Source: Zygaena filipendulae | Lineage: Eukaryota; Arthropoda; Insecta; Lepidoptera; Zygaenidae | Assembly: GCA_907165275.2 (NCBI GenBank) | Contig: OU015664.1 | Location: 6,348,001-6,412,000 of the forward strand | DNA length: 64,000 nucleotides | Direction of reading: 5' to 3' | Shown here: positions 8,718 to 28,868 of the stretch, piece by piece | How the letters are laid out: every line of letters begins with the position of its first letter | Numbering within the stretch: the first letter of the stretch is position 1 | The notes under the pieces: model-generated | Databases searched by the model: none | Told to the model about the DNA's origin: nothing | What the model saw: the letters and a program-made list of their open reading frames with translations, nothing else | Program-made: the position numbers and the translations under genes

Positions 8718-8886
8718 TTTAAAGGTAAACATAGATAAAACATTAGTTTTAGCACTTATAAAAAAAATTGGTAGGTACTCAAAGGAATTTGAGGTAATAT
8801 TTGACGTTATTACATAAACTTTGGAGATTATTTTTGGCTCTTTTCCTTTTAAAGTTTTCAAATCAAAGAGTGTTTACCCTGCAAGA

Positions 8887-8920
8887 TATGATGAGAGAAG
8901 GTAATCACAGTCGGTATGAT
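8887..8920. repeat. 22-bp micro-insertion (alpha word) between TATGAT repeats
   Basis: Insert 8893-8914 (GAGAGAAGGTAATCACAGTC...) is flanked by TATGAT at 8887-8892 and 8915-8920. It shares GAGAGAAGGTAATCAC with the end of the THAP element at 11937. About 170 bp upstream of the mRpS2 start codon. Confidence 0.6.
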
Positions 8921-9029
8921 CGCTATGAAAGTATCAAAAATGATTGATTGATTTGAATTTGAAGTTGAACTTTTAAAATTGTTTTAAAAAGTACCAGACA
9001 GTAGACTAGTGGTTGGCGAAAATAGATAC

Positions 9030-9285
9030 CTATCTCGACAACTATCGATAGTTATCAAGTCCGACTCGGCCATGAGACGATTGGTGTTTCTCGACTGTAG
9101 AGAGTTACGACGTTACGGTAGTATCTCTAAGTAGTTTGTGGTTACGACTAGAGCGATTACCAGATTATCTCGACGGTAACTATCGGTGGTTTCGAGAGTT
9201 ATCAAGTCAGACTCGATAATAGTATCGAATGAGGCGATAAGCGATTGATGTATCTCGACTTGTTTATAGCGAGTTATGTCCGGTT
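9030..9285. repeat. Degenerate tandem duplication (about 120-bp unit)
   Basis: Two related units share ATCTCGACAACTATCGATAG / TAACTATCGGTGG, AGTTATCAAGTC.GACTCG and a later TCTCGACT...GAGTTA tract. Non-coding. A micro-insertion sits between the units at 9112-9146. Confidence 0.55.
9112..9146. repeat. 23-bp micro-insertion (beta word) between GTTACG repeats
   Basis: GTTACG at 9112-9117 and 9141-9146 brackets 9118-9140, which is the reverse complement of CACAAACTACTTAGAGATAC. The same word is at 12026, 27244 and 28893. Confidence 0.6.
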
Positions 9286-9299
9286 TACACATCCATGAG

Positions 9300-10240
9300 T
9301 AAGTTCAGCTGTCCATCCTACTTTGTTTGAAGAGCTTAAAAGCCTTATGGTATTTAATAAAACTCACCAATATTATCGATACATATTCTTTTCTATATTT
9401 TCACATTGTCAAAATCATATTAGGTATACCTTCAAAGAATCTGTAACATTTCTTTCATTCTTGTATATCTTGTGTATCTATAATCTGAATCTCGGAAACA
9501 GCTCCAACAATTTTCATTAAATTTGAGCAGAGTTTCCGGGGCGATTAATCGATCTAGCTAGGTTTCATTTTTAGAAAATGTCGTTTTATCCGTTTAGGCA
9601 ATGAAAAATGAGTGTTTGTGGAAGAACAGATGGCGCTATACACAATGAGCGAACATCGGTGACCTAGATATTATTTACTTAATCGAAAAGTAGACAGCAA
9701 CATCCAAACGGTGAGCATCCTTAGTTAAGTTCATGGACCAATTAATTGGTCCATGGTTAAGTTCAATACATTTCTTCATCCTACATACTTGTCGGCCGCC
9801 ATCCACACGATAGTAATAAGTGGGCGGGGAGCGGGATACGAAGCGGGCGGGTACGCGCTACTGTCCTGTCCAAAAAATAGAACTGGTTTCTATCCTCCGG
9901 CGAGTTGCTACTTTCACTTGCCGGTCACATGTGGTTTTTTTTCTTATGGAAGTGTAAGTAAACCGGCCATTGAGAAATCAACTCGAGTTAGGGAGAATCC
10001 GAGTTAGTAAATCGAGTTGACACATCTCTAAATTAGGTCTATATCTCAGAGTTCTCAGACCAAAAAACAAAGATCAAGATCATTATTCACCATAAAAGTT
10101 GAAGTCGTCTTAGTACCTATGTTTTTCTATTTTATTTTATTTTTATTATTACACAAATGATAGTTGCTATTGAGAAACTTACTGTTTATAAAAATAAAAT
10201 AGATGACATGTTAAATAAAATAAATATATGAGATAATAAT
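9300..10240. other. Intergenic spacer, no gene seen
   Basis: Includes the second copy of the GGGGCGATTAATCGATCTAG repeat (about 9536-9620). Open frames here are short, lack splice logic and have no recognisable domain. Confidence 0.5.
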
Positions 10241-10249
10241 TGCAATACT

Positions 10250-11751
10250 TTATTCCTCTTTCATTATGTCTTCCAAAAGTTTTTGCCTCTCAGCTGCTCT
10301 TCTCATCTTCATAGTTACTAATGATTCATAATCCCTGTCAGATACTAGTGACGATCCTTGGACTATTTTGTTATTAGTTAACACAGGTCTTTCATTTATC
10401 CATTTTAATGAGAGTGGATTAGCTGGCAAACCTAAAAAACATGGACATTATTAATGATCTTTGAATAATTTAATAATTAATAATAAATATTAATGTATCA
10501 TTTATTTCCCTCTTCTCCAATTGAAAACCACTTAGCTAATGCTGAGTTGGTGACCCTTTCAGCAGAGCATGCAAGAGATATTATGTCTTCAAATTTAGAT
10601 TAGGCACTGTTTATATTTGTTTCCTTTTCTTGTGTGTTGTGCTGAAATAAATGATGTATTTTCTTTCTTTCTTTAATACAAGTATGTCACAAGATATACC
10701 AACAACTTGGTCAAGGTGGGGGTCTATGTCCATTAGTGGACATCTTCCTGCATATGGCAGTGATCATTCATAGTTTGAAAATTAAAGTAGGAACATCACA
10801 AACAATACACACACAGAATACAATACAATACATACCTTTTTCAATTTCAACAGCCATTTCTGAAGCTTCTTTTGTAGAGAATTCTACTAAAGCACTACCT
10901 TTCCGTTTAGGAGACATGATAAGGGCAATTATTTCACCATATTTCTTCAGAATCTTTTTTAAAGTTGCTTCATCATATCCTCCATTGGTTGGATCATCTT
11001 TGTCAGCAGACCATTTGATTTTTATCCTGTTGAGACTTGAGTCCCAAACCGGCTCAGTTAGTATTCTCATTGTCCTTTTTACTTCTTCATTAACTCTCTG
11101 TTGTTCTTCTTGCAAAAGCCGGCTGCCTTCTTTTTGCAACCTTTCAATTTCTGCAGCAAGCTTCTGTTCGTCTGTAAGGTTGGCACCTTTCTCAGCGTTC
11201 GCCTCACGTTCACGTTTCTCTAAATCCTCTTTAAGTTTTTGCCTTTTACTGTCTAATTTTTTGTGCCGTAACTTTGCAGCAGCTTTAGCCCTAAGTACTT
11301 TGTCATAAGCAGCTCTAGCTGATACATCTGTTAAAATCTCTAGAGCCCGAGCCAGTTCATGGAAAACTTCACCTGCTTTAGGGTCATCTGGGTTCTTATC
11401 AGGATGGCATTGTAGTGCTTTCTTTCTATAAGCTCTCTTGATCTGCAATTGGTATTTACAATGTTATCATTATTAATAGGTAGGTACTAAAAATAATTAC
11501 GAAACCCTATATTTCTTTAATATTATCTGGTAGGTATATTATAGACTTATTAAGTGTACATAATCTACAACTAGTAGGTATTTCAGCTGATTAGTAGGTG
11601 CCTACTTAAAGCAAACACGAAAACTTGAAAGTGTTGAACTTGAAAATAGTTTGTTTCGATAATGTGTTAGACATACCTCTGATTCTGAAGCATCTATTTG
11701 TAAATCAAGTATTGCGTAAAGATCCACATCTTCTACTTTTATCGTAGCCAT
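10250..11751 (-). CDS. DNAJC17: DnaJ homologue subfamily C member 17 (J domain plus RRM)
   Basis: Exons 11751-11677, 11442-10836 and 10431-10250; phases 0 and 1; 287 residues. Exon 1 starts [20 protein letters not shown]. The J domain continues in exon 2 with [18 protein letters not shown], the HPD triad at residues 38-40, so an Hsp70-stimulating J domain is expected. A charged coiled coil follows ([20 protein letters not shown] ... [20 protein letters not shown]), then an RRM-like domain ([11 protein letters not shown] ... [20 protein letters not shown]). The tail is [17 protein letters not shown] domain, coiled coil and RRM in about 290-300 residues is the DNAJC17 layout; that family is a nuclear, splicing-linked co-chaperone (known for the family, not shown here). 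The large intron 2 (404 bp) is AT-rich. A micro-insertion lies about 150-190 bp upstream of the ATG. Confidence 0.95.
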
Positions 11752-11902
11752 TGCTTCGAAATTCCAATATCTATACCAAAGATCATATATTCACTACGAC
11801 CACGGACTTCGATCCACAAATTAGCAAATACGGTAGGTAGATAGCTCAACAATAATCCACACTTGATCCACAATCCACATTCCACACAATGAAGCAGCAG
11901 TC

Positions 11903-11938
11903 AAAGACACAAATTAACTAGACTTATGTCTAAAGACA
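11903..11938. repeat. 22-bp micro-insertion (gamma word) between AAAGACA repeats
   Basis: AAAGACA at 11903-11909 and 11932-11938 brackets CAAATTAACTAGACTTATGT... (11910-11931). Same word as at 26298 and, truncated, at 14686. It lies in the 5' flank of DNAJC17 and abuts the THAP element. Confidence 0.65.
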
Positions 11939-12016
11939 GAGAGAAGGTAATCACTACCAGAGAGAAGGTAATCACTACGTTTTAAGAGACGGGACTTCCT
12001 TACTTGGTTTTGGAAT

Positions 12017-12061
12017 CCATTTAGCCATAAACTACTTAGAGATACTACCGTACCATTTAGC
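12017..12061. repeat. 27-bp micro-insertion (beta word) with 9-bp CCATTTAGC duplication
   Basis: Insert 12026-12052 carries ACTACTTAGAGATACTACCG. CCATTTAGC occurs at 12017-12025 and 12053-12061. The other arm of the same element (14494-14502) and the third copy (21018-21026) have a single uninterrupted site, so this is a true insertion or excision scar. Confidence 0.85.
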
Positions 12062-12473
12062 ACACCCAGCAATACCAACACATCGAAAATTTAAATGTCA
12101 AAATACTTCATAACTCATTGGTACCAACATTAACGAGAACAATAGGGATAGCCACATGTAGTTCCTGATTAAATCGATATCGATAAATTATCATTAGGGC
12201 ATCGTGGGCTTCATATCAGGTGAATTAAATCTACAACGGGGGAAAACATTTGTCGTAAAATTGAAACAATAGATTATTATTTTTATTTATTTATTATTAT
12301 TCCTATATTTTAGTTTGTCATGATGATGATGTTATTAGATAGATAGATATTTATTTTCTCTTTAAAAATTACATTTACATTTTATGTCAAAATTAAATAA
12401 CCTATTTGGGAAAGTAAATTATTTACTTCGCAGTGCCTCCTTGTTGAGCCTTGTTTAAATTATCGGTAGAAAC

Positions 12474-12821
12474 TGTTAAGGTTGGATAGCAATGCCATGG
12501 AGTGTAGACATTAGTGAAGAGACATAAAGTGTAGTGTTCTAATTCTAAACGGTTGCTAGCCAACCGCCCATTGATTACATCTTGTCAAAAAAGTATAAAA
12601 ATAAACTGTTGTGAAATTCTGCTTTAAATATATCTGCCTTCTATATCTATATTTAACTATTGAACTATAACGTCTTAAAGTGAGTGATAGTGTTTTACCA
12701 GTGTGTGTTCAAAGACTTCTCTTAATATTTCGTAAAAATAACAAGAACCTTTAATCCGACGTGACGTAATATTCTCTTTCTAAGCTTCCTTACTTGCTTG
12801 GTATGCAGTCGCATTCTCTAA
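12474..12821. mobile_element. 348-bp insertion inside the left THAP arm
   Basis: Bounded by TAGAAAC at 12467-12473 and 12822-12828. The third copy of the element (near 20610) is continuous across this point. The inserted DNA begins TGTTAAGGTTGGATAGCAAT and ends ...CAGTCGCATTCTCTAA. It has no coding frame that I recognise. Confidence 0.65.
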
Positions 12822-13114
12822 TAGAAACATCCTCCAAAAGCGAAAAACTTTCGTTTATCTTCCGACATTCGTTCCTTATCAATAAACTTTAACAAAAATG
12901 ACTAGTGACATGATGTTAAATTATTATATAGCAAGGCAGTATAGGTATCTTTAATTTCTTTTAAATAGTTTATTTTTCAAATTTAGGTATGTGTCATATA
13001 TTTTTTTAATTTTCATATTCATCAAGGTACAAGGTATGGTTAAATCTTGATTAACGAAAGTGTAACTTCACTCAAATATTAATAGATAAGATAGATGTTA
13101 CATAAACAACTTAC

Positions 13115-13708
13115 CATTTCTTTAGACGACTTTTCTTTGTATTTAAGTCTTTGGACTGGAAATTATCTCCACAGACATATTTTATATCGTGAAGTTTTTC
13201 GATTGGAATGTAAGCTAAGTTATCATTTCCAATATTTTTTACCCATTGTCTACATCTGAAATTAAAATATCTATCAATCATGCAAGTACACTTAGAAACA
13301 AGATAGAGTATAATATAGTTCTTTATACAGAAGACGAGGTTCACTTTATTACAATACGATCATAATACTTAATGAAAACTGCAGTAAATAATGAAAAAAG
13401 TATACGCAGCAGCAGCTTCCAAAACATTCACTATAACAGCATCATTCATTTAAGTTTATCGACTCACTTTATCGATAGTGAAGATTTACATCACTATGGT
13501 TTACAAACATGCAAATATTTTTTCTCACTTATAAAAGATAGTGTATTATTTTAGTCTTGCTGATAGCTGAAGAGAACAAAATACTTTATTACTTTACTCA
13601 AACTGTACTTACCGGTCTTCATCTATAGGAAATATCGTAATAAATTTCCTTTTATTTAAATTTTATCGACTCTATCTTTTTCTACAAATTACACACGTAC
13701 TACACCGT
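13115..13708 (-). pseudogene. THAP zinc-finger domain, decayed, two exons
   Basis: Read on the minus strand: exon 1 ends at 13613 (FPIDEDR, donor GTAAGT) and exon 2 spans 13255-13115 (CRQWVKNIGNDNLAYIPIEK, then VCGDNFQSKDLNTKKSRLKK). Together with CVIC upstream of exon 1 (about 13690) this gives the C2-CH THAP pattern: CxxC, FP, W, then CGD(H)F. The final zinc-ligand His is Asn in this copy, and in-frame stops lie between CVIC and FPIDEDR, so it is not functional as it stands. THAP domains bind DNA. Here it belongs to the mobile element at 11937-14576. Confidence 0.75.
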
Positions 13709-14677
13709 CTAATCAGTGCTATTTCACTACACAATCACAAGAAAATAGTTTTTAATAGTCACACTGCACTTTTCAAAGCGTAAATCACACAATTTTTTTA
13801 AAAATCCCACAATTATTTTCTCAAATAACAACATGCGTCGCCATGACAAACAGATGACAGATTGTAAGAAAGATTCAGAGACAAAAGACTGAAAATATGT
13901 ATGACACATACCTAAATTTGAAAAATAAACTATTTAAAAGAAATTAAAGATACCTATACTGCCTTGCTACATAATAATTTAACATCATGTCACTAGTCAT
14001 TTTTGTTACAGTTTATTGATGAGGAACGAATGTCGGAAGATAAACGAAAGTTTTTCGCTTTCGGAGGATATTTCTACCGATATTTTACTTCGCAGTGCCT
14101 CCTTGTTGAGCACAAGGAGGCACTGCGAAGTAAATAATTTACTTTCCCAAATAGGTTATTTAATTTTGACATAAAATGTAAATGTGATTTTTAGAGAGAA
14201 AATAAATATCTATCTATCTAATAACATCATTATCATGACAAACTAAAATATAGGAATAATAATAAATAAATAAAAATAATAATTTATTGTTTCAATTTTA
14301 CGACAATTGTTTTCCCCCGTTGTAGATTTAATTCACCTGGTATGAAGCCTACGATGCCCTAATGATAATTTATCGATATCGATTTAATCAGGAACTACAA
14401 GTGGCCATCCGTATTGTTCTCGTTAATGTTGGTACCAATGAGTTATGAGTATTTTGACATTTAAATTTTCGCTGTGTTGGTATTGCTGGGTGTGCTAAAT
14501 GGATTCCAAAACCAAGTAAGGAAGTCCCGTCTCTTAAGACGTCGTGATTACCTTCGTAGTGATTACCTTCTCTCTGTGAAGCAGTGATCTCGATCGCACA
14601 GAACACACCTACCCAAGGCGCGTTCCTTGGCTTCGCACGAATGTACTCGAAGGCGCTCTGTACCCGATGCGCGTTCC

Positions 14678-14705
14678 GTGGGTTTTCTAGTTAATTTGTG
14701 GGTTT
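14678..14705. repeat. 12-bp micro-insertion between 8-bp GTGGGTTT repeats
   Basis: Insert TCTAGTTAATTT (14686-14697) between exact GTGGGTTT copies (14678-14685, 14698-14705). The sister MITE at 56084 reads CCGAGGGTTTGGG without interruption. The insert is the complement of part of the gamma word. Confidence 0.7.
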
Positions 14706-15025
14706 GGGCGCAGTTGTTCGGTTAAAATTTCACTTGTTTGAGTTTCAACCAAGCCACAGAACGATCGAGTTGTTTTAATATTTGAAATTTCAGGCGCTAT
14801 TTGTTTTCTCTCAACTCACATTGCATTCTAACAAACAAAGGGGTGGTGTCGAATCCAATTATAAACAAAAAGTTTATAATTGGATGAAAAACAGTCTTAT
14901 TTGCAATGTGAGTTGAGAGAAAACAAATGGCGCCTGAAATTTCAAATATTTTGAGGTTATAAAAACAACTCGATCGTTCTGTGGCTTGGTTGCAACTCAA
15001 ACGACAACGAGTGAAATAACCGAAC

Positions 15026-15071
15026 AACTGCGCCCAGAGAGAAGATAATCACTACGTTTTAACTGCGCCCA
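15026..15071. repeat. 24-bp micro-insertion (alpha word) between 11-bp repeats
   Basis: AACTGCGCCCA at 15026-15036 and 15061-15071 brackets GAGAGAAGATAATCACTACG + TTTT. The complementary arm of the same MITE has one uninterrupted site, so the duplication was made by the insertion. The word equals the terminus of the THAP element. Confidence 0.75.
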
Positions 15072-15462
15072 AACCCACGGAACGCACACTACGTCATAGA
15101 GCGAGATCGGTAGCGGGTAGAGTTGCCAGCTAAAATCGGTATATTTGTACCCAAAATCGGTACCGTCAAATGGGGTGAATAGGGTTGATGTTTGAGTCTT
15201 GGCTGTTTATGTATTTATTATGAAATGTTAAATTAACTAATTAACATTTAGATTTAAACAACAGGTAAAATAAATGCAATCCCCATTCACCCACAAATCG
15301 GAGTAAATAGTAATGAGTTGAGGGGTTATTGGGGAAAATTAGGGCTGACACTTTCTATTATTATAATACCTATAAAAAATATGAAATTTGTTTTTTTAAA
15401 CTATTAAAGACTAAGATATATGAAATGGTCAAAATTAAAAACTTTTTACAAATCTATAAAAG

Positions 15463-18318
15463 TCAATAAAAGTCATAGTCATAGAAAACCGCCGGTCTGG
15501 GTTGCTCCCGGCGGACACTCGCCGCATTGCCGCGTTGAATGGCCACGGACAACCTCTGCGCCAAAAACGACCCAGATCGGGGATCACCACCACTCTCCCT
15601 GAGGCGCCGTCCAATTTCAGTAATAAATTGTTTGGTATCTTTGCCCCAGCACCCCGACGTCTCCACCGCAAGGGGGACAAAGACATAGTCTCTCTCGAGC
15701 TGCGAATATTTGTCGCGTTTTCTCTGTGCGGCAAAGTCAGCGGCAGCCCCCGCCGAAGCGACGGTGCGCCCCAGGTGGGAGGCCGCCACCGTACTAACGC
15801 ACGTGGCGTCCCATAACAAACACCTGCCCCTTTCCCACGGCACTAAAGTTAAACCATCAGGTCTTTTCCCGTCAGATCGACACAGACCCGGCGGTTCGAG
15901 CACGCATGGTATATTGGCCGACACCAAGGCTCTGCGGACGATGTCATTCAGGGCATGGTGCCTAGGGAATCTCCCCGCACTACGACGGCAGCTCAATGCG
16001 TGGTGCGCTTTGGCCTCCACCATGGCGCCGCAAATGCATAAATGCGGTTCGCACACATCGCAGCCCAGGCGGAGAGCAACCGCCACACGCACAGAATCAC
16101 CGTCGAGAAGAGTCCCCAGCTGCGGAGAAGGCAGTGCATGGAGCCACGCTCCAGATTCAGGCTGAGAAACAGCTCTGAGCCTCGCTAGGTCCGCCCCTCC
16201 CGACTCGTCGATGAGCTGATCCAGCAATCGCTTCACCCCGATATCGTCCCACGCCCGCTGACTACTTAAGGTAGCGGGCACGGGGGCGCCCGGGTTGAGA
16301 GCTCCCCACGCCGCCATAGCCTCCGCAACCAAAGGGATGCCCTCCCAGTCACTGACAGAAGGTAGTATCACGGTGACCAGGTCCGCAACCCCATGCGCCG
16401 ATGCCAAGAAAGCCGGTAAGCCCACCCCCCCCACGCTCCGCACCCCCAGTCCCCCAAACCGTATAGGCAGGGTGGCCTGATCCCACTGTCGCGAATCAAG
16501 GGAAACGTTTAAGATAGACTCCATGGTATCCCTCAGCGTTCGGTCGAAGGCATCCACCTCCATGGGACACAACCACGTTGGCGCCGTCCGCACCAGGTAC
16601 GTCATCTTCGGCATCGCGCAGCACATTCGCAGTAGAGTAAGGGCCACATGAGTCGAGACACCACGGAGACGCTCACGAGTAAAGAGAAGAAGTTGCCTCC
16701 TCGCCTCAACCGCTCCAGGAACAGCCGCCGGAAAAATTGGCGAACCAAGTAAGTTAAAGTTGTCCGGCGACAATTCTCTGAGACCGGGAAGAATCGAAGA
16801 AAAACGAGAAAAGACTGAACGCACGATGTCACCACAGGGGAAAAACTCACACTTGGACGAATGCACAACCAGTCCAACCTCCCTAAGGCACGGCAGTAAC
16901 TTGGCCAAGTCTTGTGCCACCACCTCCGGCCTTCCTCCTATAGTAGCATCGTCAAGGTACCACACGTTTAGTGGAGATCTAAGTTCAGTCACCGCCTTAT
17001 GGATAGCGAGACTGAAAACCAGCGGCCCAAGTGGGTCCCCCTGCTGCGCTCCAACCTGAGAGAGGATGCGAGTTCCGTTGTAAAAAAGATAAGAAGGATA
17101 GCGATAAGCTTGAAATAAGAAGGGATACAGCGTAGGAGTTTTCTCCTGAACCTCAGTCAAAAGAACGTCCCTCTCGACTGTGTTGAAGGCGTTTCGCACA
17201 TCTAACTTAACGATCACTGCGCCTGCATTCTCCCGCTCCATCGCAAATGTACGCGTCGCATGTATAGCTGCCTCGCAGCCCAACCTCGTACCAAAGCCCA
17301 ATTGGTGAGGCTGCAGGTAAGTCGCCAAATCAGCCCTAACCGAGCGACATCCCAGCCTTCCAACCAAACGGCGGAACGAGCTCCCTATCGCAATAGGTCT
17401 CACCCCCCCATCCTTTTTAGTCAAAGCGCACAAAGACGCCCCGTACAGATAAGGGCAGACCTCAAGGTTGAGCTGGCCACTCAAAAGAAAATTACACAGC
17501 TTTGTAAGGGATTCCAGTAGTCGACGGCCGTTGTCGCCCGCAGACCCCGAAGTCAGTTCCTTCAAGTGCGCGGGGCGCATGCCGTCCAACCCCGCCGCCG
17601 ACGCGTTATGAAATGACCCAACAGCCTGAGCCACCTCCTCGACGCTAACGGTCAAAGCGGGGATGGACCGGTCCGGCGCCTGCGGGAAAACAAGAGGGCG
17701 GGAAGGACTCGGGTGCTTGGCTCGCAGTGAGGCGAGGACTTCAGGGCTCGCTGATGCGACTGCGTCCTCCGACATTAACACGCGCGCAGCGCCTCGTATA
17801 TCCCCCTCGAAAACTTTTCCCTCTATTGTCCTCCATATTGATGGCCGTCCGGAAAAGGAACCGCCACTAACGTTGTCGAATTGCGGAGATTGAGTACCAA
17901 CAGTCTCAACATTAGACTTGACCTTGGATGTCAAGTTTCCAGGCCCCGTGGCATCGGGGGTTTTTAATGCCGAGTAGGCGAAAGTGAGCAGTGAGTACCA
18001 GTCGTCGACCTGGTTCTTGTCAACGCAGTTGTTAATAATCTCATACAACTTACCCGCCGCTGTGCTTCTTGCGCCTCTGGGGATATGTTTCAGCACACGG
18101 ACGGTATTCCTAAGCGAAGACAAATCATCCAGTGACCGGACAGGGCCCACACTGGGCCCAGAAGCGGACAAAATCGGAGCGCGATCGGTAGTGGTGGCGC
18201 CGCGGCCGGATACACCTTTATGCATCCTCCCCATATGTACACTTAAACCGTGTGGACCAAAGACACGAGAGGAGCCGGGGCAAAGTGGGCACGTCGATGA
18301 AAGGGAGTTAGATGCCAT
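15463..18318 (-). CDS. Intact single-ORF LINE polyprotein (zinc finger, reverse transcriptase, restriction-like endonuclease)
   Basis: 951 residues, no internal stop, ATG at 18318. A C2H2 finger sits near the N-terminus (C10, C13, H28, H33: CPLCPGSS ... VHMGRMH). The central reverse transcriptase has motif A VIVKLDVRNAFNTVERDV, motif B GAQQGDPLGPLVFSLAIH and the catalytic YLDD box in NVWYLDDATIGG. Further on is LPIRFGGLGVRSVGG. The C-terminus has a Cys/His cluster (CDVCEPHLCICG ... HHALSC) and a PD-type nuclease segment (GKRPDGLTLV ... LLWDATCV). One finger, RT and a C-terminal restriction-like nuclease in one ORF is the R2/NeSL/Utopia-type architecture, without an apurinic endonuclease. I cannot assign the clade. 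The ORF is clearly GC-richer than its AT-rich surroundings, suggesting recent arrival. No 28S or other conserved target gene is seen beside it. Confidence 0.9.
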   Translation of the reverse strand: MASNSLSSTCPLCPGSSRVFGPHGLSVHMGRMHKGVSGRGATTTDRAPILSASGPSVGPVRSLDDLSSLRNTVRVLKHIPRGARSTAAGKLYEIINNCVDKNQVDDWYSLLTFAYSALKTPDATGPGNLTSKVKSNVETVGTQSPQFDNVSGGSFSGRPSIWRTIEGKVFEGDIRGAARVLMSEDAVASASPEVLASLRAKHPSPSRPLVFPQAPDRSIPALTVSVEEVAQAVGSFHNASAAGLDGMRPAHLKELTSGSAGDNGRRLLESLTKLCNFLLSGQLNLEVCPYLYGASLCALTKKDGGVRPIAIGSSFRRLVGRLGCRSVRADLATYLQPHQLGFGTRLGCEAAIHATRTFAMERENAGAVIVKLDVRNAFNTVERDVLLTEVQEKTPTLYPFLFQAYRYPSYLFYNGTRILSQVGAQQGDPLGPLVFSLAIHKAVTELRSPLNVWYLDDATIGGRPEVVAQDLAKLLPCLREVGLVVHSSKCEFFPCGDIVRSVFSRFSSILPGLRELSPDNFNLLGSPIFPAAVPGAVEARRQLLLFTRERLRGVSTHVALTLLRMCCAMPKMTYLVRTAPTWLCPMEVDAFDRTLRDTMESILNVSLDSRQWDQATLPIRFGGLGVRSVGGVGLPAFLASAHGVADLVTVILPSVSDWEGIPLVAEAMAAWGALNPGAPVPATLSSQRAWDDIGVKRLLDQLIDESGGADLARLRAVSQPESGAWLHALPSPQLGTLLDGDSVRVAVALRLGCDVCEPHLCICGAMVEAKAHHALSCRRSAGRFPRHHALNDIVRRALVSANIPCVLEPPGLCRSDGKRPDGLTLVPWERGRCLLWDATCVSTVAASHLGRTVASAGAAADFAAQRKRDKYSQLERDYVFVPLAVETSGCWGKDTKQFITEIGRRLRESGGDPRSGSFLAQRLSVAIQRGNAASVRREQPRPAVFYDYDFY

Positions 18319-18419
18319 TTTTTGTTGGATAAACAGGACCTATGCCGGGTTTAAATACTCAAGGAGTGGTGTGGATAGTCTAAGCGTATTTAACCATTGT
18401 GACAAAAGTTTATAGGGTA

Positions 18420-19530
18420 AATAGAACCTATGAATAAGTTACATTACATAGGTAGTCGAGTAAATAACCTACTACTACTACTACACAGAAAAAAAAAATA
18501 AGTTATTCATATCACCGTGTATAAAATGAATTACAATAGGTATGTCGATTTTTTCGGTAAAGTTAAATAATTAAAAAAGAAACTAACAGTAGTAAAATAA
18601 ATAAAATAATAACAACAACAACAATAATTTGTGGTGTAAAGGACCAACTTAATCAAAAACCATCGCCAAAAACACGGTAGGTTGTAATAAAATAAGCTGG
18701 AATTGTTACATCAGCCATTAAAAGTCTGAGATATAAAATAAAATCGAAACTACAGTTCAATAGATAATAATAATAGTACCTAATTCAGGAATAATACTTA
18801 CAGATTATAAATAAATAAATTAAATCAATCAAATCTATATACCAAATCTCTGCGAGATGTCAACAACTAACACAATATTTACAGATTATAAATAGGTTAA
18901 ATCCATCTAACAATACAAACTATATGATAAAAATTAAACTAAAAGGGCAAAATCCGCCAATACGTAGAAATCCTCAATAAACTCTTCAAGATAATCCGTG
19001 GACCATGGCCTTCTGGGCGTTGGCGACTAGTTAGGTAGTTGAAGATATTAAGGGGCTGGGCGCTTCGCGAAGAGTCGCCATATAATAGTAACGCCTGTCA
19101 AAATTTAATGGCAACTGGAGAGATTGCTCATTACTTTCCAGAAGGCGAATTGTTTATGTTTTCGTTTGTATATTATTGGTTTATTTTCTACCCACATGGG
19201 CTTCACAATTCATAATCACCAAATATGAAATTAGATTTATGATCTTAGATTTTTCCAAAACAAAAATAGCACCACACAAATCACTTATGATTAATTGAAG
19301 ACTTCGACAAATAGAACACGCGTCACTCCTTATTTAAATCAACAAGACACTTTCAAGTATTTTAATAATAATTTGTTTCCAGAGGACACGCACGCGTGTG
19401 CGTACCCGCGTCATCGTATATCTAGATGACGCTAGTTCTATCGATAGTTAGTGGTTATATACTCTTTGATCGATAGTTTATTTTTGCAAGCACTATTGCA
19501 TGCGCGCCTCACCACGAAAAAATGCGATGA
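18420..19530. other. AT-rich spacer, no gene seen
   Basis: Contains (AAT/AAC)n-like simple sequence near 18600 and two similar ACAGATTATAAATA tracts (about 18801 and 18880). No coding potential recognised. Confidence 0.5.
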
Positions 19531-19539
19531 AAATTGAAA

Positions 19540-19745
19540 ACCTGTTTTTTTTTTGTGAAGTTTACCCCTTTCGGTGAAGGCAGAAGGAAACTTAGTCCAT
19601 ATAGCCAATTCAGTGGTATATTTCTTCTGAAGTTATTTACATCGAAATGCATTGGTGAGATGCATTTCGATGCTTTACCGGAACATTTGGCAGCAAATCT
19701 TCACAGTAGAACCAGTCTAACGCAACTAGGAACAAATTAAATTTT
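19540..19745 (+). repeat. Dispersed repeat (GTGAAGGCAGAAGGAAACT family)
   Basis: Shares ACATCGAAATGCATTGGTGA and the AGTCCATA(TA/CA)G..AATT segment with 21910-22030 and, more diverged, with 53215-53300 and 53870-53930. Non-coding. Confidence 0.6.
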
Positions 19746-19819
19746 GTTCGTATTTAGCACTCATTATTTTTTTAATTTTTTTTTTCCATGGCATCAATGG
19801 CCTCACATGCTATTTCAGT

Positions 19820-21086
19820 CTTTTGTCTCTGAATCTTTCTTACTATCTGTCATCTGTTTGTCATGGCGACGCATGTTGTTATTTGGGAAAATAATTGTGT
19901 GATTTTTAAAAATTTTGTGTGATTTACGCTTTGAAAAGTGCAGTGTGACTATTAAAAACTATTTTCTTGTGATTGGGTAGTGAAATAGCACCGATTAGAC
20001 GGTGTAGTACGTATGTAATTTGTAGAAAAAGATAAAGTCGACAAAATTTAAATAAAAGGAAATTTATCACGAAATTTCCTATAGATGAAGACCGGTAAGT
20101 ACAGCTTGAGTAAAGTAATAAAGTATTTTGTTCTCTTCAGCTATCAGCAAGACTAAAATAATACACTATCTTTTTGAAATGAGAAAAAATATTTGCATGT
20201 TTGTAAACCATAGTGATGTAAATCTTCACTATCGATAAAGTGAGTCGATAAACTTTAATGAGTGATGCTGTTATAGTGAATATTTTGGAATATTTTTGTA
20301 TAGCTGCTGCTGCGTATACTTTTTTCATTACTTACTGCAGTTTTCATTAAGTATTATGATCGTATTGTAATAAAGTGAACCTCGTCTTCTGTATAAAGAA
20401 CTATATTATACTCTATCTTGTTTCTAAGTGTACTTGCATGATTGATAGATATTTTAATTTCAGATGTCAAGAATGGGTAAAAAATATTGGAAATGATGAC
20501 TTAGCTTACATTCCAATCGAAAAACTTCACGATATAAAATATATCTGTGGAGATGTAAGGAACGAATGTCGGAAGATAAACGAAAGTTTTTCGCTTTTGG
20601 AGGATATTTCTACCGATAATTTAAACAAGGCTCAACAAGGAAGCACTGCGAAGTAAATCATTTACTTTGCCAAATAGGTTATTTAATTTGGACATAAAAT
20701 TTAAATGTAATTTTTAAAGAGAAAATAAATATCTATCTATCTAATAACATCATCATCATGACAAACTAAAATATTGGAATAATAATAAATAAATAAAAAT
20801 AATAATTTATTGTTTCAATTTTACCACAAATGTTTTCTCCCGTTGTAGATTTATTTCACCTGGTATGAAGCCCACGATGCTCTAATGATAATTTATCGAT
20901 ATCGATTTAATCAGGAACTACATGTGGCCATCCCTATTGTTCTCGTTAATGTTGGTACCCATGAGTTATGAAGTATTTTGACATTTAAATTTTCGCTGTG
21001 TTGGTATTGCTGGGTCTGCTAAATGGATTCCAAAACCAAGTAAGGAAGTCCCGTCTCTTAAAACGTAGTGATTAACTTCTCTCTGA
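19820..21086 (+). mobile_element. THAP-domain element, third copy (not folded back)
   Basis: Colinear with one half of the 11937-14576 foldback, plus orientation, ending at the same terminus (CTTCTCTCTG at about 21086). AGTAGAACC follows the right end (21087-21095) and also occurs at 19706-19714, a possible 9-bp target duplication. The left terminus does not match the right one, so the left boundary is uncertain. It provides the uninterrupted reference for two insertions in the foldback copy. Confidence 0.65.
20005..20656 (+). pseudogene. THAP domain remnant fused to downstream exon
   Basis: Exon 1 ends at 20094 (KFITKFPIDEDR, donor GTAAGT). Exon 2, 20464-20656, reads CQEWVKNIGNDDLAYIPIEK, then YICGD, and then jumps to VRNECRKINESFSLLED ... 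QQGSTAK and a stop. The jump removes the last zinc ligand and most likely reflects an internal deletion joining two exons. One N-terminal Cys is also changed (CSTYVIC against CSTCVIC in the other copy). Non-functional remnant. Confidence 0.7.
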
Positions 21087-21344
21087 GTAGAACCTTAATA
21101 GGACGCACTGTTGGAAGTTGTATAGTAAAATGAAAACCTCCCGATGAACGCCCTATTTCATCTTATTTCACCGTTTCCGCACACTGTTCATCACTAATGG
21201 ATCACTATTATGCAAAATCCACCATATTCACACAATATTAATCACGATAAACTAATTTGCAAAACAATGAAATAAAACTGACGTCCACTCTGCTAAAAAT
21301 CCCGCCAAAAGTTCCCCAAAAGTCCGATGAAAATCTGAATGAAG

Positions 21345-21800
21345 TTTCCTGAATGAAGTATCCTGACTGAGAACCTACGTGATGACCTCGATTTAGAACG
21401 TGAGCGAAGGGCTCTGGCTGTTCGGTGCAATATGCTCGCTCGCCGTTTTTCACGGTGCAGTCCCGGGGCGAAGCTGACACTGTTTAGAGCATATTGTCAA
21501 TGCTTCTACACGTGTCAGCTTTGGTTCAACTGTGCCAAAAGTGCACGCAGCAGCATCAGAGTGCAGTATAATAATGCATATCGTATTCTGATGAAACTGC
21601 TTAAATACTGCAGCGCGTCGGGTATGTTCGACGAGGCCGGAGTGCCTGATTATTTCGCGATTATTAGATCTCGGGTTGCAGCCTTTTGGGCCCGCATCCG
21701 CGATTCTGAGAATGAGATCCTCAGGATATGCGCCGAGAGCCCTGATAACCCCATAATTAGGTACTGGCTTGGCGTACATCGCGACACTAATCGTAAATAA
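21345..21800 (+). pseudogene. LINE reverse-transcriptase C-terminal fragment
   Basis: Frame with ILTENLRDDLDLERERRALA, then NMLARRFSRCSPGAKLTLFR, AYCQCFYTCQLWF, QYNNAYRILMKLL and SASGMFDEAGVPDYFAIIRS. This is the post-catalytic region of a non-LTR reverse transcriptase. A stop lies just upstream and no catalytic box remains, so it is a 5'-truncated dead copy. Clade not assigned. Confidence 0.75.
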
Positions 21801-22263
21801 TATGCACCTCCACTTGGGGGTCATATTTCAATTTAATTTGAGTCTTTTTTTTGGTTTTGGATGGCAATGGTTTTTTTTTACCTGAAATAAATGATTTATT
21901 ATTATTATTATGCATGATTTTTTACCCCAATGGGGAAGGCAAAGGAAGTTAAGTCCATACAGTCAATTTAGTAGTATTTTTCTTCTTCTAAAGTTATTTA
22001 CATCGAAATGCATTGGTGAGATGGGTAAATATTTTGTTGAAGGTTGAGCAGTTGACGTTAGGCTATTGTAACTTTATCTATAAATTACAAACCGACTCAC
22101 GTAAAAGCGAGAAATAAACAAAATTTTAACAAAAACGTTAAAAACGACTTTCAAAAACAAAAAATAACAAAATACCGATTTAATCCAAAAGACAAAAATC
22201 GTAATATTATTATTGGTTTGTGCTGCACTGATCGGTTAGAATTCGGTGACAAGCCAAATAGGG

Positions 22264-22301
22264 AGTACCCAGAGAGAAGGTAATCACCACGTGGAAGTAC
22301 C
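22264..22301. repeat. 26-bp micro-insertion (alpha word) between AGTACC repeats
   Basis: AGTACC at 22264-22269 and 22296-22301. The insert 22270-22295 contains AGAGAGAAGGTAATCACCAC. The sister MITE at 63075 lacks it. Confidence 0.65.
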
Positions 22302-22349
22302 TAGATGGGGCATGAGCTGTCAACTCACGCCACGAGCTCGTCTTGAGCA

Positions 22350-22391
22350 GAACAACCCACGTAGTGATTATATGATCTTTGGAACAACCCA
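22350..22391. repeat. 22-bp micro-insertion (alpha word, inverted) between 10-bp repeats
   Basis: GAACAACCCA at 22350-22359 and 22382-22391 brackets CGTAGTGATTATATGATCTT + TG. The first 11 bases are the complement of TAATCACTACG. The sister MITE near 63245 reads straight through (GACAACCCAAGTGGG in complement). Confidence 0.75.
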
Positions 22392-22920
22392 AGTGGGCAG
22401 ACACAAGAGGGCTTGGCATCGAATTCAAATTGACAACTTACCTTACCTATTCTTATTCGGATTAAATCGGTATTTTGATATTTTTAACTTTTTGGTGTAG
22501 TGCATTTTTGTGTGGTTTGAAGTAGGTTTTAGTTTTTTAATAAAAATATTCAATGTACAGAAAAGTGGATTCTACTCTTTTAAGTTAAGATTATACTACA
22601 CGACGGATTAAAAATTAAAATTTAGTCATTTAGCTCATTATCAGTATTGCGAATGAAAAAGTAATCGACGACAGAATCCACGTGTGGGTGTGGGGGAGCT
22701 TCCCTGCGCGACACGAATAAACATCTAAAAAAAGTGTTGGAACCGAAATCGGGATTTGACTTAGCTAGTTTTTAACATAAATCCAAATTTAAATAAATTA
22801 AACCTAAAAGTAACATAGGGTAGATTATACCTATTATATCAACCTAACAGTATAGGTAACTACACTACAAACAGGACGTACACTTAACACTAACTTGCAA
22901 ATGCTTCAACGAAAATACAC

Positions 22921-23225
22921 TTGATTAGACAAATAATTAAGAGAGACAACGACACTCGTTTGAGAGGGCATCACTTTAAACTGCAAAGACCCTGCCTCTC
23001 CAGGAATAACCCACATAAACACTTTTTTGCTAACAGAGTGGTTGCACCTTGGAATGGTCTACCGGAAGAAGTAGTCTTGGCACCTAACATCAACATATTT
23101 AAAAACAGATTGGATAAATATTTGATACAATTAAAAGATAAGAAATAGTGTATAACTGGATACAGGCACCTATCAGTTGCATTAACTGCCTGCCTGAATT
23201 ATAAATAAATAATAATAAATAAAAT
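22921..23225 (+). pseudogene. LINE 3' end, copy 1
   Basis: Encodes RDNDTRLRGHHFKLQRPCLS, then HKHFFANRVVAPWNGLPEEV and a stop after KDKK. It is followed by a 3' UTR (AACTGGATACAGGCACCTAT) and an ATAAATA-rich tail. Same element as the longer minus-strand copy at 30763-31645. 5' truncated. Confidence 0.85.
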
Positions 23226-23352
23226 ACGTGAAAAAAAGCCAAGTAAAAATTTGTTTGTACTGAAATTACTAGCGCGACTGTCTCCCGAACCGCAGCGTTT
23301 GTGTCGATCCCCGGGGAGGGCCCCGGCCCCGTGACTGTATGGATTTCATAGA

Positions 23353-26240
23353 CTATTCTGTATTCGTTACTAAACCATCAAAAGGCTTCCATTCTTTTAC
23401 GAATTCCAAAACTTTTTTTCTTTGTATATCACCATATTCTCTTGGCGGATTTTTCCAAAAATGATGGTCTAAATCTAATATACCAGCAACAATTTCCTGT
23501 AAAAAATTAAAGGATATATTTTTAAAACTATAAAACAATTCTGTCATACATAATTTTTGTGAAACTTATGCCGTTTACGCAGCGTAGGCAATGGAAGCTC
23601 TCAAAAGGAATATTTTCCGTTTATTGCAACATTTTTCATTGCTGCTCCGCTCCTATTAGTCGTAGCGTGATAATATATAGCCTAGCCTTCCTCAATAAAT
23701 CGGCTATCTAACGCATTGAATTTTTTTTTAAATCGGACTAGTAGTTCCTGAGATTCACGCAGGTATTCTGGGATACCAAGTACCCTGACAATGTATATGC
23801 AAAATTTCATGATGATCAGTTGAGCCATTAAGGTGTGAAAGCTGACATAGTAGTAGTGACAGACTACTATGTCAGCATGTAGGTAATCATTTCAACAACT
23901 AGGCTTAGTTTCCATTCTGCTTTAGATTATTTTTATTGTGTTAATGGTAACCTACCTCAGCAAAATTTTTCTGGAACAACTGTTGATCTTCTATTATGTG
24001 GGCAAATCCGGGATCCATTCCAAAATCTATCCAGAAATATGGCAATCCCTTAGGTACACACTTACGTATATTTTTCCCTTTTAAATCTATTACTTTCTTG
24101 TTCATAGACCATTCTGCCTCACATTCAAGAATAGCTTTTTTAAAATATATTGCTGCTGCATCTCCAACATCACGTGGAAGGGGTACACAGTTTATAACCA
24201 TATGAGGAAACCTGTGTAATTTTGTTGCAGTTTCATAAAATATGACATCTTTATTTTGAGAGTTAAAGAATCTTGTCAGCCCTCTTCTGTAATCCTAAGA
24301 GAAAACAGATTATGAAAATAAATTTAAAATAATCTTAGTGAATACACGACAAAAGCAATAAGTGAATTTTACAAATATCAATACTATCAATCTATTTATT
24401 ATTAGTCAACAGCAAAAAATTTACCATTATCTCCTCCCAAACATCTTCATCAAGTGACGTGACACATGTTGTATGTTGCAATGTAGAAATAAAACACTGG
24501 CCTTTCACTATTGATTTTGTTGAAGGCAATGCCAAATATACTTTTCTTGCTCGACTGACCATTAGGTGTTTTAACATATTTTTAGATTCCACACAATATT
24601 GACATCCATCCAAAGTCTTTTCGATTTTAACATGTTGGTTAATGGCTCTTTGTCTCTCCCTTTCACTGTCTTTTGATTTATTTATATTTTTTGAAATTTC
24701 ATCCATGAAGATATCTTCAAGGTCATCATTGGGATTTTTGTGTTTGCCAACAACTTTAGCCAGTTGAGCTTCATCATCATAATTTGATCCATATTTTTCT
24801 TGTTGAAACTAAAAAAAAATAAATTACTTACATAATTTATGATAATCAAAAAATATGATAAACAAAATAATTACCAAATCTTTCAAAAGCTTTTAACATC
24901 TTTATGGTAACACTAACCATTTCTGACAAAGTATATTTGTCATCATTACTATAATAGTTCATCCTTTCTCCAGATTTATGTGTTTCTGTTTTTTGCCGTT
25001 TATTTTTACAGTCACCAGAATCCGTTTTTGTCAAAGGTCTGCTGTTTCCAGCACTATTTGTGGATGTTAACAATATACCTGTTTCTTCTTCTAGGTCAGG
25101 ATTTGGATTATGTTTCCTATATTCCCTTGCTGCATCTAATTTTTCTTTAAGATCATTCATAAGCTTAGTATCACCCATTATTTCAGCTTTTACAAGTTTA
25201 GCAGCTAGTTTGTTCATTTTCTCATCACTCAGATATTTTATTTTGTTATTTTTTGTTAAATTTGTCTCAAAATTAGAACTATTGACAATGTTTTCCCTGA
25301 CGACTGTATCGCTGGTGATGGCTTCTTTTTTCCAATTGCTTGACTTTCTGTGTGAGTTTATCTCATTTTGTGTAAAATTATTTGAAGAATCACGTGACAA
25401 TTTTGAATAGTAGTCTTCATCATCTGATGGTTTAACAAATGGTTGTGATTTCTTATGACTATCTAGTTTTTCTGGTAGACCCTTACCTCCTTCTTTCCAA
25501 TATGGATTTAGTTCTCGGACACTAGTACGTGGATTATATGACTGCATTTGATTTTTGTTTTTATGTTTATCTTTTGGTCTGATGTCATCTTTAGTGTAAG
25601 TTTTTAACATTCCGGTCATGGACATCCAATCTTCTCTCACCTCACGAATTGGTGAAGTCTTGCATTGAGCCATATCTTTTTCTACCCATTCATCAGACTC
25701 TGAGCTACTTGATCTTGAAGACTGGAAACAAATACAATTTATGTTTCACTAAGAAAATTATATTTTGAAATGACAAACATAATGCCCAATGCCTTGCATT
25801 TTCTGGCAGTTCTGACTGAGATTTAAGACCAAACAAATTACTATGTCATTGCATTACCCACTGACAGTATTCTAGATGTGGATGATCAATATAACTATGG
25901 TCAACTACAGTAGTAATTCAGTCTTTTGATTGGAAGTTTATCTAATTATTGCCAATCTATTGTTATAACATAAAGCAAAAACAGCAAAACTCTACACATA
26001 CCTAGCTATTTCTTAAAAATAAAAATGAGTGAAGTACTTAAAAGTTAAAACATTCTTCCAAGAGAAGATCACTGTGTGGTGTTCTTACTTCGGATGAATA
26101 ATAGGTACATAATTGATTAGTGCAGGATCCAAAGGGAGTACTAAATTGATACTCACGTCGTTACTTTTAGATTGATATTTCGTTTTGCGCCGTACATGTT
26201 CTTTGTGGATTTGCTTCCTCTTTTTTATTTTATCTTCCAT
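23353..26240 (-). CDS. CWF19L2: CWF19-like protein 2 (spliceosome-associated)
   Basis: Five exons: 26240-26157, 25721-24875, 24798-24425, 24294-23956, 23496-23353; 595 residues. The N-terminus is basic (MEDKIKKRKQIHKEHVRRKT), followed by a long low-complexity charged region and then EKYGSNYDDEAQL. The CwfJ C-terminal domain 1 starts near CQYCVESKNMLKHLMVS (C376, C379, H388) and includes SLDEDVWEEIM. Domain 2 reads LPYFWIDFGMDPGFAHIIED and ILDLDHHFWKNPPREYGD. This domain pair defines the CWF19 family, linked to late spliceosome and intron-lariat turnover (family knowledge). The exon 3 acceptor was placed at CAACAAG/AAAAATATGG because the nearer AG breaks the frame. A Gln replaces the first His of the HIT-like motif (KGQCFISTLQH). 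Intron 4 contains a decayed SINE. Confidence 0.95.
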
Positions 26241-26261
26241 GATTTACAAGCACAAATTAAT

Positions 26262-26375
26262 AAGACTTATGAAGTGAGCACCAGCACAAATTAACCACAA
26301 ATTAACTAGACTTAAGTCTAAAGATTAACCAAATAACCACAAATTAACTAGACTTATGATGTCTAAGGACAGATA
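26262..26375. repeat. Cluster of gamma-word units upstream of CWF19L2
   Basis: Three related units CACAAATTAA(C)TA.GACTTA lie within 115 bp just 5' of the CWF19L2 start codon. The middle one, 26298-26323, is bracketed by exact 8-bp ATTAACCA repeats (26290-26297, 26324-26331) and contains the palindrome AGACTTAAGTCT. The same word is in the 5' flank of DNAJC17 (11910). Confidence 0.65.
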
Positions 26376-27236
26376 GGAATCTGACAGTATTTTGAGGGGT
26401 CGTTAGAGATCCACCAATCGCAGAAGTTGACAGAGCCACAGATAAAAATATTTGTGTTGTTCATGTCGATAAAGTTTATCGATACTAGGGATGTCAATAA
26501 GTAGTGTCAATCATTATGATTTGTATTTTCATTTTTTTAGGAGAGTGACTGATCTGTTTATGTTTTTCTCTAAACATTTAATCGAACTAATTTACGTAGT
26601 GTTATATGCGTAGCCGTAGTTTTGGCGGGAACGTTTAGCTAACAACGGAACAAGATAGTATGGAGTGATCTCATGAAAAAGTTTTAGAGCTTTTATAGTG
26701 AATTGCATAAAAAAAACGTGTACCTAGTAAAACATAAATACAAAACTGCATATAGTAGTTAATAACACTCATGTAGTAGGTAAACTATAATAGCAGCTGA
26801 TTCAACTTCCAGTTTCCCCGCCACGTTAACATGATGATTAACGAGAAATTATAAACTGATGGAGTAGTGCGCAGATGTAACCATTTGCTTTAATGCGTTA
26901 AAATTAGCACGATAATGATTATGGCGCTAGTAACACTAACGCTAACGCTGGTGGAGCAGTACCATAATATAAAATACCTACATTGATCTAATTATTTTTA
27001 CTTGAAACTGACTAAATGCATTATATTATGCGAAAGTCCATAAAAAAGAGGAAATAAAGATAAAGGCGACATCAAGTTTTAGTTTGGAACAACTGACAAA
27101 ATATATCAGCTAGTATATTTTCTATTTTACACTGAGCAAAATAATATAATCACTACGTTTTAAGAGTCGGCACTTTCATACTAATCTCTGAAATCTATGA
27201 AGGCGTTTTGTGCCAACCTTATCCTTATCAATATTC

Positions 27237-27278
27237 AATTGGGCCACAAACTTCTTAGAGATACTACCGTGAATCGGG
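27237..27278. repeat. 28-bp micro-insertion (beta word), imperfect 7-bp flanks
   Basis: Insert 27244-27271 carries CACAAACTTCTTAGAGATAC + TACCGTG. Flanks AATTGGG and AATCGGG differ at one base. A further beta word at 28893-28916 faces a TAGTTTGTGG complement about 35 bp downstream. Confidence 0.5.
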
Positions 27279-27571
27279 CTTGTTACACTATAGGGAATCT
27301 AAATCGGCTACAATTTAGGATCAGTGAGTGTGTGAGAGAGAGAGAGAGTGATCACACTACATTAAATTGTAGGTACCCTAAATTGACTACTCTAGGGTAC
27401 ATTTTATAGTGCTAACAGACGTTCGAATTTGGTACAGGCCGCAGAACCGGCATGTACCCAGGGCCGTAAAACTGTTAATAAAAAATAAATAAAAGGTAGG
27501 TAGGTAGGTAATTGGTAAGTGGCAATAAAATAACTAGGTAGGTACCTACCTACCTAAATAATTTGATCTAT

Positions 27572-28413: not shown

Positions 28414-28868
28414 GTTCTGTGGATTTGGGTGCGTTGTTTGGTTAAAATTTCACTCGTTTGAGTTGCAACGCCACAGAACGATCGAGTTGTTTTTATAACC
28501 TCAAAATATTTGAAATTTCAGGCGCCATTTGTTTTCTCTCAACTCACATTGCGAATAAGACTGTTTTACATCCAATTATAAACTTTTTGTGACTACGGCA
28601 CCTCCCCTTTGTTCGTAAGAACTCCGATTGATTTCTTTTTCGACAAATCCGGTTTTTGGCGCAAACTTTGACACTTACAATACATAGCTGTCAGAGTGAA
28701 AATTAAGGATGCTTCGGAAATGGTTATTTGGTTGCTGCACTCTGAGCCACGGAACGGGTGAAACTACGCTCTGACAGTTTTAGAGTAAAATTTCGCCAAG
28801 CCACAGAACGGGTATAGAGCGCGCTCGAGCGCGTTCGAGTGCATTCGTGCGAATCCACGGAACGCACC
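28414..28868. mobile_element. Foldback MITE, GTGCGTTCC family, copy 2
   Basis: Shares ACAGAACGATCGAGTTGTTT and AAACTTTTTGTGACTACGGC with copies at 14617 and 56084, and ends GAATCCACGGAACGCACC. Includes short inner repeats (GCTGTCAGAGTGAAAATTAA / ACTACGCTCTGACAG). Confidence 0.8.

Follow-up and report, generated by a model that had tools for sequence, protein, structure and literature searches.

The closest described system is the P element of Drosophila, whose transposase, according to excerpts from two reports, cuts 17 nt inside each end of the element and leaves 3′ tails (PMC7776569, PMC2895639). In the excerpted part of one of these, many P junctions keep parts of both ends and others collapse to 5–8 nt of one end (PMC2895639); excerpts of the other describe P insertions as prevalent around promoters (PMC7776569). 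We analysed a 64,000-nucleotide stretch of Zygaena filipendulae contig OU015664.1 (hereafter the window, part of C15) and searched the genome to which it belongs (365.9 Mb, 56 contigs, one assembly). Tiny inserts of ~20–28 bases between 8-base duplications are a genuine feature of this genome. Judged by their sequence, they are probably polar excision scars of P-like (THAP) cut-and-paste transposons, with ~28 nt left from one end only.

The initial annotation had reported ten inserts between direct repeats in the window, carrying words here called alpha, beta and gamma, and reading the sequence confirmed all ten words in place. With the anchor set by hand at the word's first base, an 8-bp direct repeat with at most one mismatch was found at eight of the ten sites, exact at 9112, 12017, 15026 and 22350 and with one mismatch at 8887, 22264, 26290 and 27237. 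At these eight, and at an extra site at 19440–19476, part of a transposon end lies between 8-bp repeats that differ at no more than one base (Table 1), but the sites at 11903 and 14678 failed the test. Site 11903 is ambiguous because its repeat, AAAGACA, is partly the gamma word's own end (GTCTAAAGA). At 14678 an insertion is nonetheless supported by eye, as the partner arm of a palindromic host repeat (near 15070) and a third copy (near 28418–28440) both lack the insert; ~20 nt thus appear to have been inserted and the right duplicate damaged.

Eight-mer pairs 10–40 apart numbered 92 in the window versus a mean of 30 in 20 shuffles, but many of these pairs are other repeats, so the signal is carried by the words rather than by repeats alone; a de novo 8-mer list showed many unrelated repeats, and repeats by themselves were rejected as evidence. 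Self-alignment of the window's repeats, an unbiased source of indels, returned 20 rows with gaps of at least 9, of which two were the 12017 insert, one (59648) lay within an epsilon word and the rest were not word inserts. Two word clusters (11777–12061 and 26253–26358) lie, by eye, just upstream of inferred start codons (those of a DnaJ/RRM gene at ~11752 and of another gene at ~26241). The beta word at 28896–28950 is followed, ~20 nt on, by TAGTTTGTG; the pair has no duplication and may be what remains of a two-ended form. On the minus strand, 15463–18339 forms an open 958-codon reading frame that encodes a reverse transcriptase domain (1.7e-17) and is probably the gene of a non-LTR retrotransposon. 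A palindrome pair, GTGACGTCAC, with a spacing of 34–37 nt, occurs in four copies (33601, 40070, 47149 and 54054) and belongs to a ~330-nt repeat family that is found at 3794–4102 as well.

Table 1 Words, scars and THAP element copies in the window (positions are those of the window).
Feature	Positions	Strand	Details
Alpha-type insert without CA start, insert 8893–8912	8885–8920	+	Flanks GATATGAT / GGTATGAT, one mismatch
Beta scar, 29-nt insert 9112–9140	9104–9148	-	Duplication GTCGTAAC, exact
Delta word, no detectable duplication	11777–11798	+	Just upstream of inferred DnaJ/RRM gene start codon (by eye)
THAP element copy 1: rearranged, with inverted arms and alpha flanking the body on each side	11898–14576		Duplication TGAAGCAG at 11890–11897 and 14577–14584 (ends by eye)
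Gamma word, 29 nt (listed site 11903), ambiguous	11908–11936	+	8-bp duplication not found
Two tandem alpha ends	11938–11979	+	Repeat ATCACTAC lies within the word itself
Beta scar inside THAP copy 1, 28-nt insert 12026–12053	12018–12061	+	Duplication CATTTAGC, exact
Gamma insert of ~20 nt, right duplicate damaged	14681–14700	-	By eye; fails 8-bp test
Alpha scar, 27-nt insert 15035–15061	15027–15069	+	Duplication ACTGCGCC, exact
Epsilon scar absent from the earlier list, 21-nt insert 19448–19468	19440–19476	-	Duplication CTATCGAT
THAP element copy 2, ends CAGTCTAACG... and ...CTTCTCTCTG (alpha)	19713–21085	+	Duplication AGTAGAAC at 19705–19712 and 21086–21093
Alpha scar, 24-nt insert 22270–22293	22262–22301	+	Flanks GGAGTACC / GAAGTACC, one mismatch
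Delta scar, 24-nt insert 22358–22381	22350–22389	-	Duplication GGTTGTTC, exact
Nested gamma words at 26296 and 26338	26288–26358	+	AAATTAAC / AGATTAAC flank the first word, one mismatch
Beta scar, 27-nt insert 27245–27271	27237–27279	+	Flanks AATTGGGC / AATCGGGC, one mismatch
Beta word, no detectable duplication	28896–28920	+	Followed ~20 nt on by TAGTTTGTG

Genome-wide, the beta 24-mer occurs in 297 exact copies and the gamma 17-mer in 813, with none for either reversed control. An 8-bp repeat with at most one mismatch flanked 31 of 51 beta matches (50 from the genome and 1 from the window; 22 exact) and 16 of 32 gamma matches (10 exact) from 28 stretches out of the 813 copies plus the window, compared with 6.9% of random positions in the same records (0.95% exact); binomial tails were computed for these comparisons. 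The excess of flanking repeats, whose absence had been named as grounds for refutation, is therefore large. In an extended beta sample (72 of the 297 genome matches, of which 100 were listed, taken from the first 30 places and 40 further stretches, plus 1 in the window), the repeat was present in 42 of 73; the other 31 had no detectable duplication, at least 6 of them being parent elements. For alpha, 17 of 30 distinct matches, mostly from loci picked for other words, had an exact repeat, one of the 17 being a tandem within the element end in the window. Loci L015 and L067 overlap and have one alpha site in common. Matches were deduplicated by sequence context for alpha and beta tail lengths, unfilled sites, downstream bodies, recurrent inserts and duplication base counts, and duplicates were retained in the 51- and 73-match beta counts, the 16 of 32 for gamma, the insert lengths and the duplication-extension count.

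The other ground for refutation, that the words are internal pieces of a long repeat, fared no better, as most copies are not followed by a common body: one was seen in 12 of 85 beta and 5 of 34 alpha matches in the sample. Among 68 gamma matches, four small downstream clusters comprised 11 matches, which we interpret as host repeats or as words nested in one another. Forty 2-kb stretches taken at round coordinates on 11 contigs (80 kb) contained six word-like matches versus none for the reversed words, and three of the six were clear scars (L118 and L146, exact; L132, one mismatch). Extrapolation from these three scars in 80 kb, a rough sample, gives ~14,000 scars per genome (Poisson 95% range, 2,800–40,000). 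Exact scans of IMG/VR for three words and of GTDB genomes for one word returned no matches.

The scars share a consistent anatomy. Among 64 exact duplications, 51 had no leftward extension, 8 reached 9 bp, 4 reached 10 bp and 1 reached 11 bp, and 36 extended on neither side, which is about the chance expectation for 8 bp; the duplications do centre on ~8 bp, as first proposed, and the 6–11-bp spread reported earlier fits a fixed 8 bp plus chance extension. Across 63 deduplicated scars, the duplication consensus was GT....AC on both sides (G at position 1 in 28, T at position 2 in 35, A at position 7 in 38 and C at position 8 in 35). The target preference of the Drosophila P element is GTCCGGAC. 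An additional C in the terminus (CCA...) was considered and dropped after this symmetric consensus emerged. The word starts with CA directly after the duplication, where our scans were anchored, and the opposite side of the insert varies; the CA starts noted in the window hold genome-wide.

Beta inserts are most often 28 nt long. In a scan reaching 60 nt, 42 beta inserts comprised 15 of 23–27 nt, 16 of 28 nt and 11 of 29–53 nt with extra bases or nested words; the commonest was CACAAACTACTTAGAGATACTACCGTAT (15 cases), followed by forms of 25 nt (6) and 24 nt (4). Element-matching sequence in beta inserts mostly spans at most 28 nt, and the few values of 29–30 may run into the duplication by chance. 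In alpha scars the element sequence ends at 27 nt or sooner in 16 of 16, excluding a 13-nt tandem in an element end. Gamma inserts, for which no parent was found, diverge after 28–29 nt by eye against a 29-nt reference; two 'full-length' gamma rows match that reference and are not parents. A link between this length and that of piRNAs (28 nt) was considered. Longer inserts hold extra bases, with nearby sequence apparently copied in L023, L046 and L063 and a word nested in L057. At the far junction, the last bases before the duplication are TG in 4 of 17 exact-repeat alpha inserts, as if 1–2 bases of the opposite end may have been retained, and TGC in a fifth. In a listing of recurrent CA-started inserts, zeta (CACTGAGCAAATAATCACTACGTTTTA) and eta (CACAGACGAATAAGAGAAC) were also present, but beta, gamma and alpha were commonest; this dominance follows in part from the sampling, since beta or gamma had served to select most loci. 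Seven other starting dinucleotides gave counts for one 9-mer of up to 11 for AC and up to 6 for CT, which may be the same words shifted in frame.

Larger elements that end in these words exist for alpha and beta, but none was found for gamma in the sample. Alpha was correctly identified as a terminus of a THAP-domain element: with stops read as X, copy 1 scored 28.6 bits (cut-off, 23.9), copy 2 fell just under the cut-off at 23.2 bits, and this THAP evidence concerns the alpha element rather than beta. The termini of copy 2 are dissimilar (CAGAGAGAA versus CAGTCTAAC), and since its THAP exons run towards the alpha end, the retained end is the downstream one in that copy. Reading of mainly the two ends of a further stretch, on C1, placed CTCAGAAC next to a left end at 7125454 and also next to an alpha end at 7127470. 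The alpha end with its inner sequence occurs 221 times exactly, although alpha elements may be fewer because elements such as copy 1 carry that end twice.

The beta end with inner sequence occurs 45 times exactly, marking parents of ~3.5–4.1 kb with 8-bp duplications and dissimilar ends. A matching 8-bp duplication was present in three of four fetched beta parents (L124, GCCGTGAG; L119, ACCGGAAT; L126, GTTCCAAC; L125, none), that of L119 being weaker evidence because its flank is itself a repeated stretch. Parental duplications mostly depart from GT....AC; only GTTCCAAC fits. The two beta parent ends (CACAAACTA... and CACGCCCAG...) have no matching terminal inverted repeats, and the opposite end of all four parents, read inward, is CACGCCCAGTAATCTTC, without a match to beta beyond CAC. 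The idea that beta and gamma form two ends of one element, which came from L064, was ruled out by the beta parents' other end, CACGCCCAG. Pfam searches of seven ORF pieces from one beta parent gave no match, so no catalytic transposase domain was seen there, and an ORF listing of three more (at least 60 aa, strand listed) contained none longer than 68 aa. A polyadenylation-like signal and a short ORF weakly suggest the direction of the beta gene. The sample contained no parent for gamma, delta or epsilon (68, 19 and 15 matches, respectively), and delta and epsilon had no common body.

The most informative feature of the scars is that they are one-ended. The earlier objection to a simple P scar, that most inserts carry a single end, was right, and the same end is retained nearly every time. 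The opposite beta end has 35 exact occurrences. For 34 of them a beta parent end facing the occurrence lies no more than 20 kb away (at 3.5–4.1 kb for 30 and at 8–14 kb for 4), leaving one unpaired. By comparison, ~250 of the 297 beta ends lie outside known parents, an estimate and not a floor because changed 24-mers or inner words (for example, at L084) escape the 297 or the 45, and one that includes ends not proven to be scars (the repeat was present in 42 of 73 sampled). For alpha the count is sample-based: 17 exact-repeat matches keep alpha (one being the tandem) and none keeps CAGTCTAACG, and the opposite alpha-element end, seen at four places in the sample, had the repeat at none. Of the two transposon ends, then, it is nearly always the same one that survives in beta scars, a bias not predicted by the textbook mechanism.

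Paralogous stretches provide unfilled versions of several sites. When 89 scars were queried by their joined flanks against all retrieved sequence (at most 5 mismatches in 25 columns), 16 of them matched a paralogue containing a single target copy and no insert; two of the 16 were discounted as matches to a word or element end itself. Site 12017 is unfilled in two other stretches of the window and in L048 and L070, site 15026 at another place in the window as well as in L034 and L057, and site 22350 near 63205 and in L099 and L119. The site at 19440–19476 has an unfilled match in L020 at 83% identity.

We propose that a full element (copies seen, ~1.4–4.1 kb) would insert and duplicate 8 bp of target; the duplication itself was observed for several copies, and the GT....AC preference for the duplications of scars. 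The element would later excise. To judge from insert lengths, the break at the beta or alpha end would leave the first ~28 nt on the flank, and the break at the opposite end would fall at or within ~2 nt of the duplication. Cutting would then be asymmetric, leaving a long tail on one side but breaking almost flush on the other, and we place the asymmetry in cutting because repair has no evident reason to favour a side. End joining would close the break and, in doing so, shorten the tail or introduce a few bases, sometimes templated-looking, of the kind observed at the junctions, and the product would be a duplication, a one-end tail and a second duplication. The usual maximum of 27–28 nt, the fixed CA side, the frayed opposite side and the flanking 8-bp copies fit an excision break followed by end joining, and scars can outnumber their source elements because scars persist. 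L064, which looks two-ended with gamma at one side and beta at the other, fits poorly, as does L084, where ~70 nt of beta end, longer than the proposed tail, precede other sequence in a form between scar and parent. The polarity departs from the known P mechanism, yet P too gives some nearly one-ended joins, as excerpted in PMC2895639.

The main competing explanation is insertion of an end only, in which transposase pastes just the terminal ~28 nt of one end, perhaps through an abortive two-strand attack or from a cleaved end fragment, and the full element was never present at most sites. This would account for the near-constant single end (34 of 35 opposite ends are paired with parents), for inserts exceeding parents in number (297 beta ends versus 45), for gamma, delta and epsilon lacking a parent in the sample and for the peak of beta insert lengths at 28 nt. 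Both models predict much the same sequence. We consider end-only insertion unlikely: an 8-bp duplication requires both strands to be cut, normally by two ends, the far junction resembles trimmed end joining rather than transposase work, and the TG of the opposite end may persist in 4 of 17 alpha junctions. The related proposal that the THAP transposase repeatedly pastes one 20–28-nt element end into GT....AC targets, sometimes twice per target, is similarly doubtful; if true, such end-only fragments would be the shortest DNA transposition products known to us.

Three further explanations were weighed against the same observations. Symmetric cleavage of the P type, in which each flank receives a long 3′ tail and the tip of one tail is joined to the recessed strand of the other flank with removal of the other tail, would yield one-ended scars with an upper length, and such tails on both sides are known P chemistry according to excerpts of PMC7776569 and PMC2895639; the model was our first proposal but was demoted by the polarity count, as it leaves unexplained why the same end is nearly always kept, and it now seems improbable. 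Self-contained mobile micro-elements of 22–28 bp, recognized and moved as units, could draw on the many copies of the same word and on the 24-nt CA...TG form that recurs in alpha and delta. We regard them as very improbable, because a transposase-defined end would be fixed but the far end is not (13 distinct tails in beta inserts of at most 40 nt), because two binding sites would hardly fit and because larger parents with the same end exist. Truncation of retrotransposon copies at the 5′ end during target-primed reverse transcription, which typically gives one fixed and one variable end, or derivation from pieces of longer repeats, could accommodate the intermediate length of L084 (~70 nt), but is scarcely credible given that the duplications fit a fixed 8 bp, that lengths pile up at 28 without a spread (scan to 60 nt), that most matches have no common body after the word and that parents have both ends fixed.

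Some targets seem to have been used more than once. Three exact copies of one 8-mer surround two words in two cases identified by scan (L014 and L097); two independent events on one 8-bp site in 366 Mb are unexpected by chance and may reflect target choice or a memory of the earlier site. By eye, L041 and the parent L124, which is followed by a gamma-like scar, resemble reused targets. At L036/L123, L057 and L038, alpha and epsilon inserts occupy an identical spot (GATACTAC) inside beta ends, one of which is a full beta parent end. If polar excision is the correct reading, the genome would record past jumps as readable marks of 20–28 bases, in a rough number of ~14,000 (2,800–40,000), and transposition would become countable even where the transposon is rare or gone. 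Each scar leaves behind a transposon-end word and fresh 8-bp repeats, and ordinary repeat finders probably overlook these marks because they are so short. The one-sidedness would further predict a P-like transposase whose cut at one element end differs from its cut at the other.

A search of titles and abstracts in the open PMC literature found none describing one-ended 28-nt scars, but several known systems overlap with parts of the pattern. Truncated LINE and SINE copies show variable duplications and a continuum of truncations, which were not seen here within 60 nt apart from the one intermediate, L084. Like MITEs, the scars are short, numerous and derived from larger elements; unlike MITEs, which have two inverted terminal repeats around a short body, nearly all have one end (L064 is a possible exception), are far shorter (20–28 nt) and have an unfixed far end. 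A genome-wide survey of DNA transposon footprints in rice, as excerpted, likewise described scars with filler bases, although exactly two target copies remained after only 8 of 94 excisions there and the mean filler length was 13 bp (PMC4423477). In the present genome, a recurring end word is commonly bordered by clean 8-bp copies.

The strongest resemblance is to the P superfamily (P, Pdre2 of zebrafish and Galileo), with which, according to excerpts of PMC7776569 and PMC10983969, these sequences share the THAP domain of the alpha parent and CA...TG ends, and the 8-bp duplication is as in P and Pdre2 (PMC7776569, PMC10983969). The traits observed here are that duplication, the THAP domain (in alpha copy 1 only) and a palindromic GT....AC target preference (in scars only); unlike in the superfamily, the inverted ends of beta parents agree only as far as about CAC. 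The RNase-H-like catalytic domain with a GTP-binding insertion that is typical of the superfamily was not seen in the seven ORF pieces of one beta parent. The lack of matching terminal inverted repeats in beta parents and alpha copy 2 is why we call the elements P-like and not members. The suggestion in the initial annotation that the inserts are P-like excision scars stands as the best reading, together with its CA starts, 8-bp duplications and THAP link, but its 17-nt figure is not supported, as retained tails reach 27 nt for alpha and 28 nt or slightly more for beta. Excerpts describing Drosophila P excision junctions report the same 8-bp duplication, terminal DNA left at the donor site, microhomology and templated insertions, with 17-nt tails at both ends (PMC2895639), whereas the scars of this genome suggest that one end is kept, up to 27–28 nt long.
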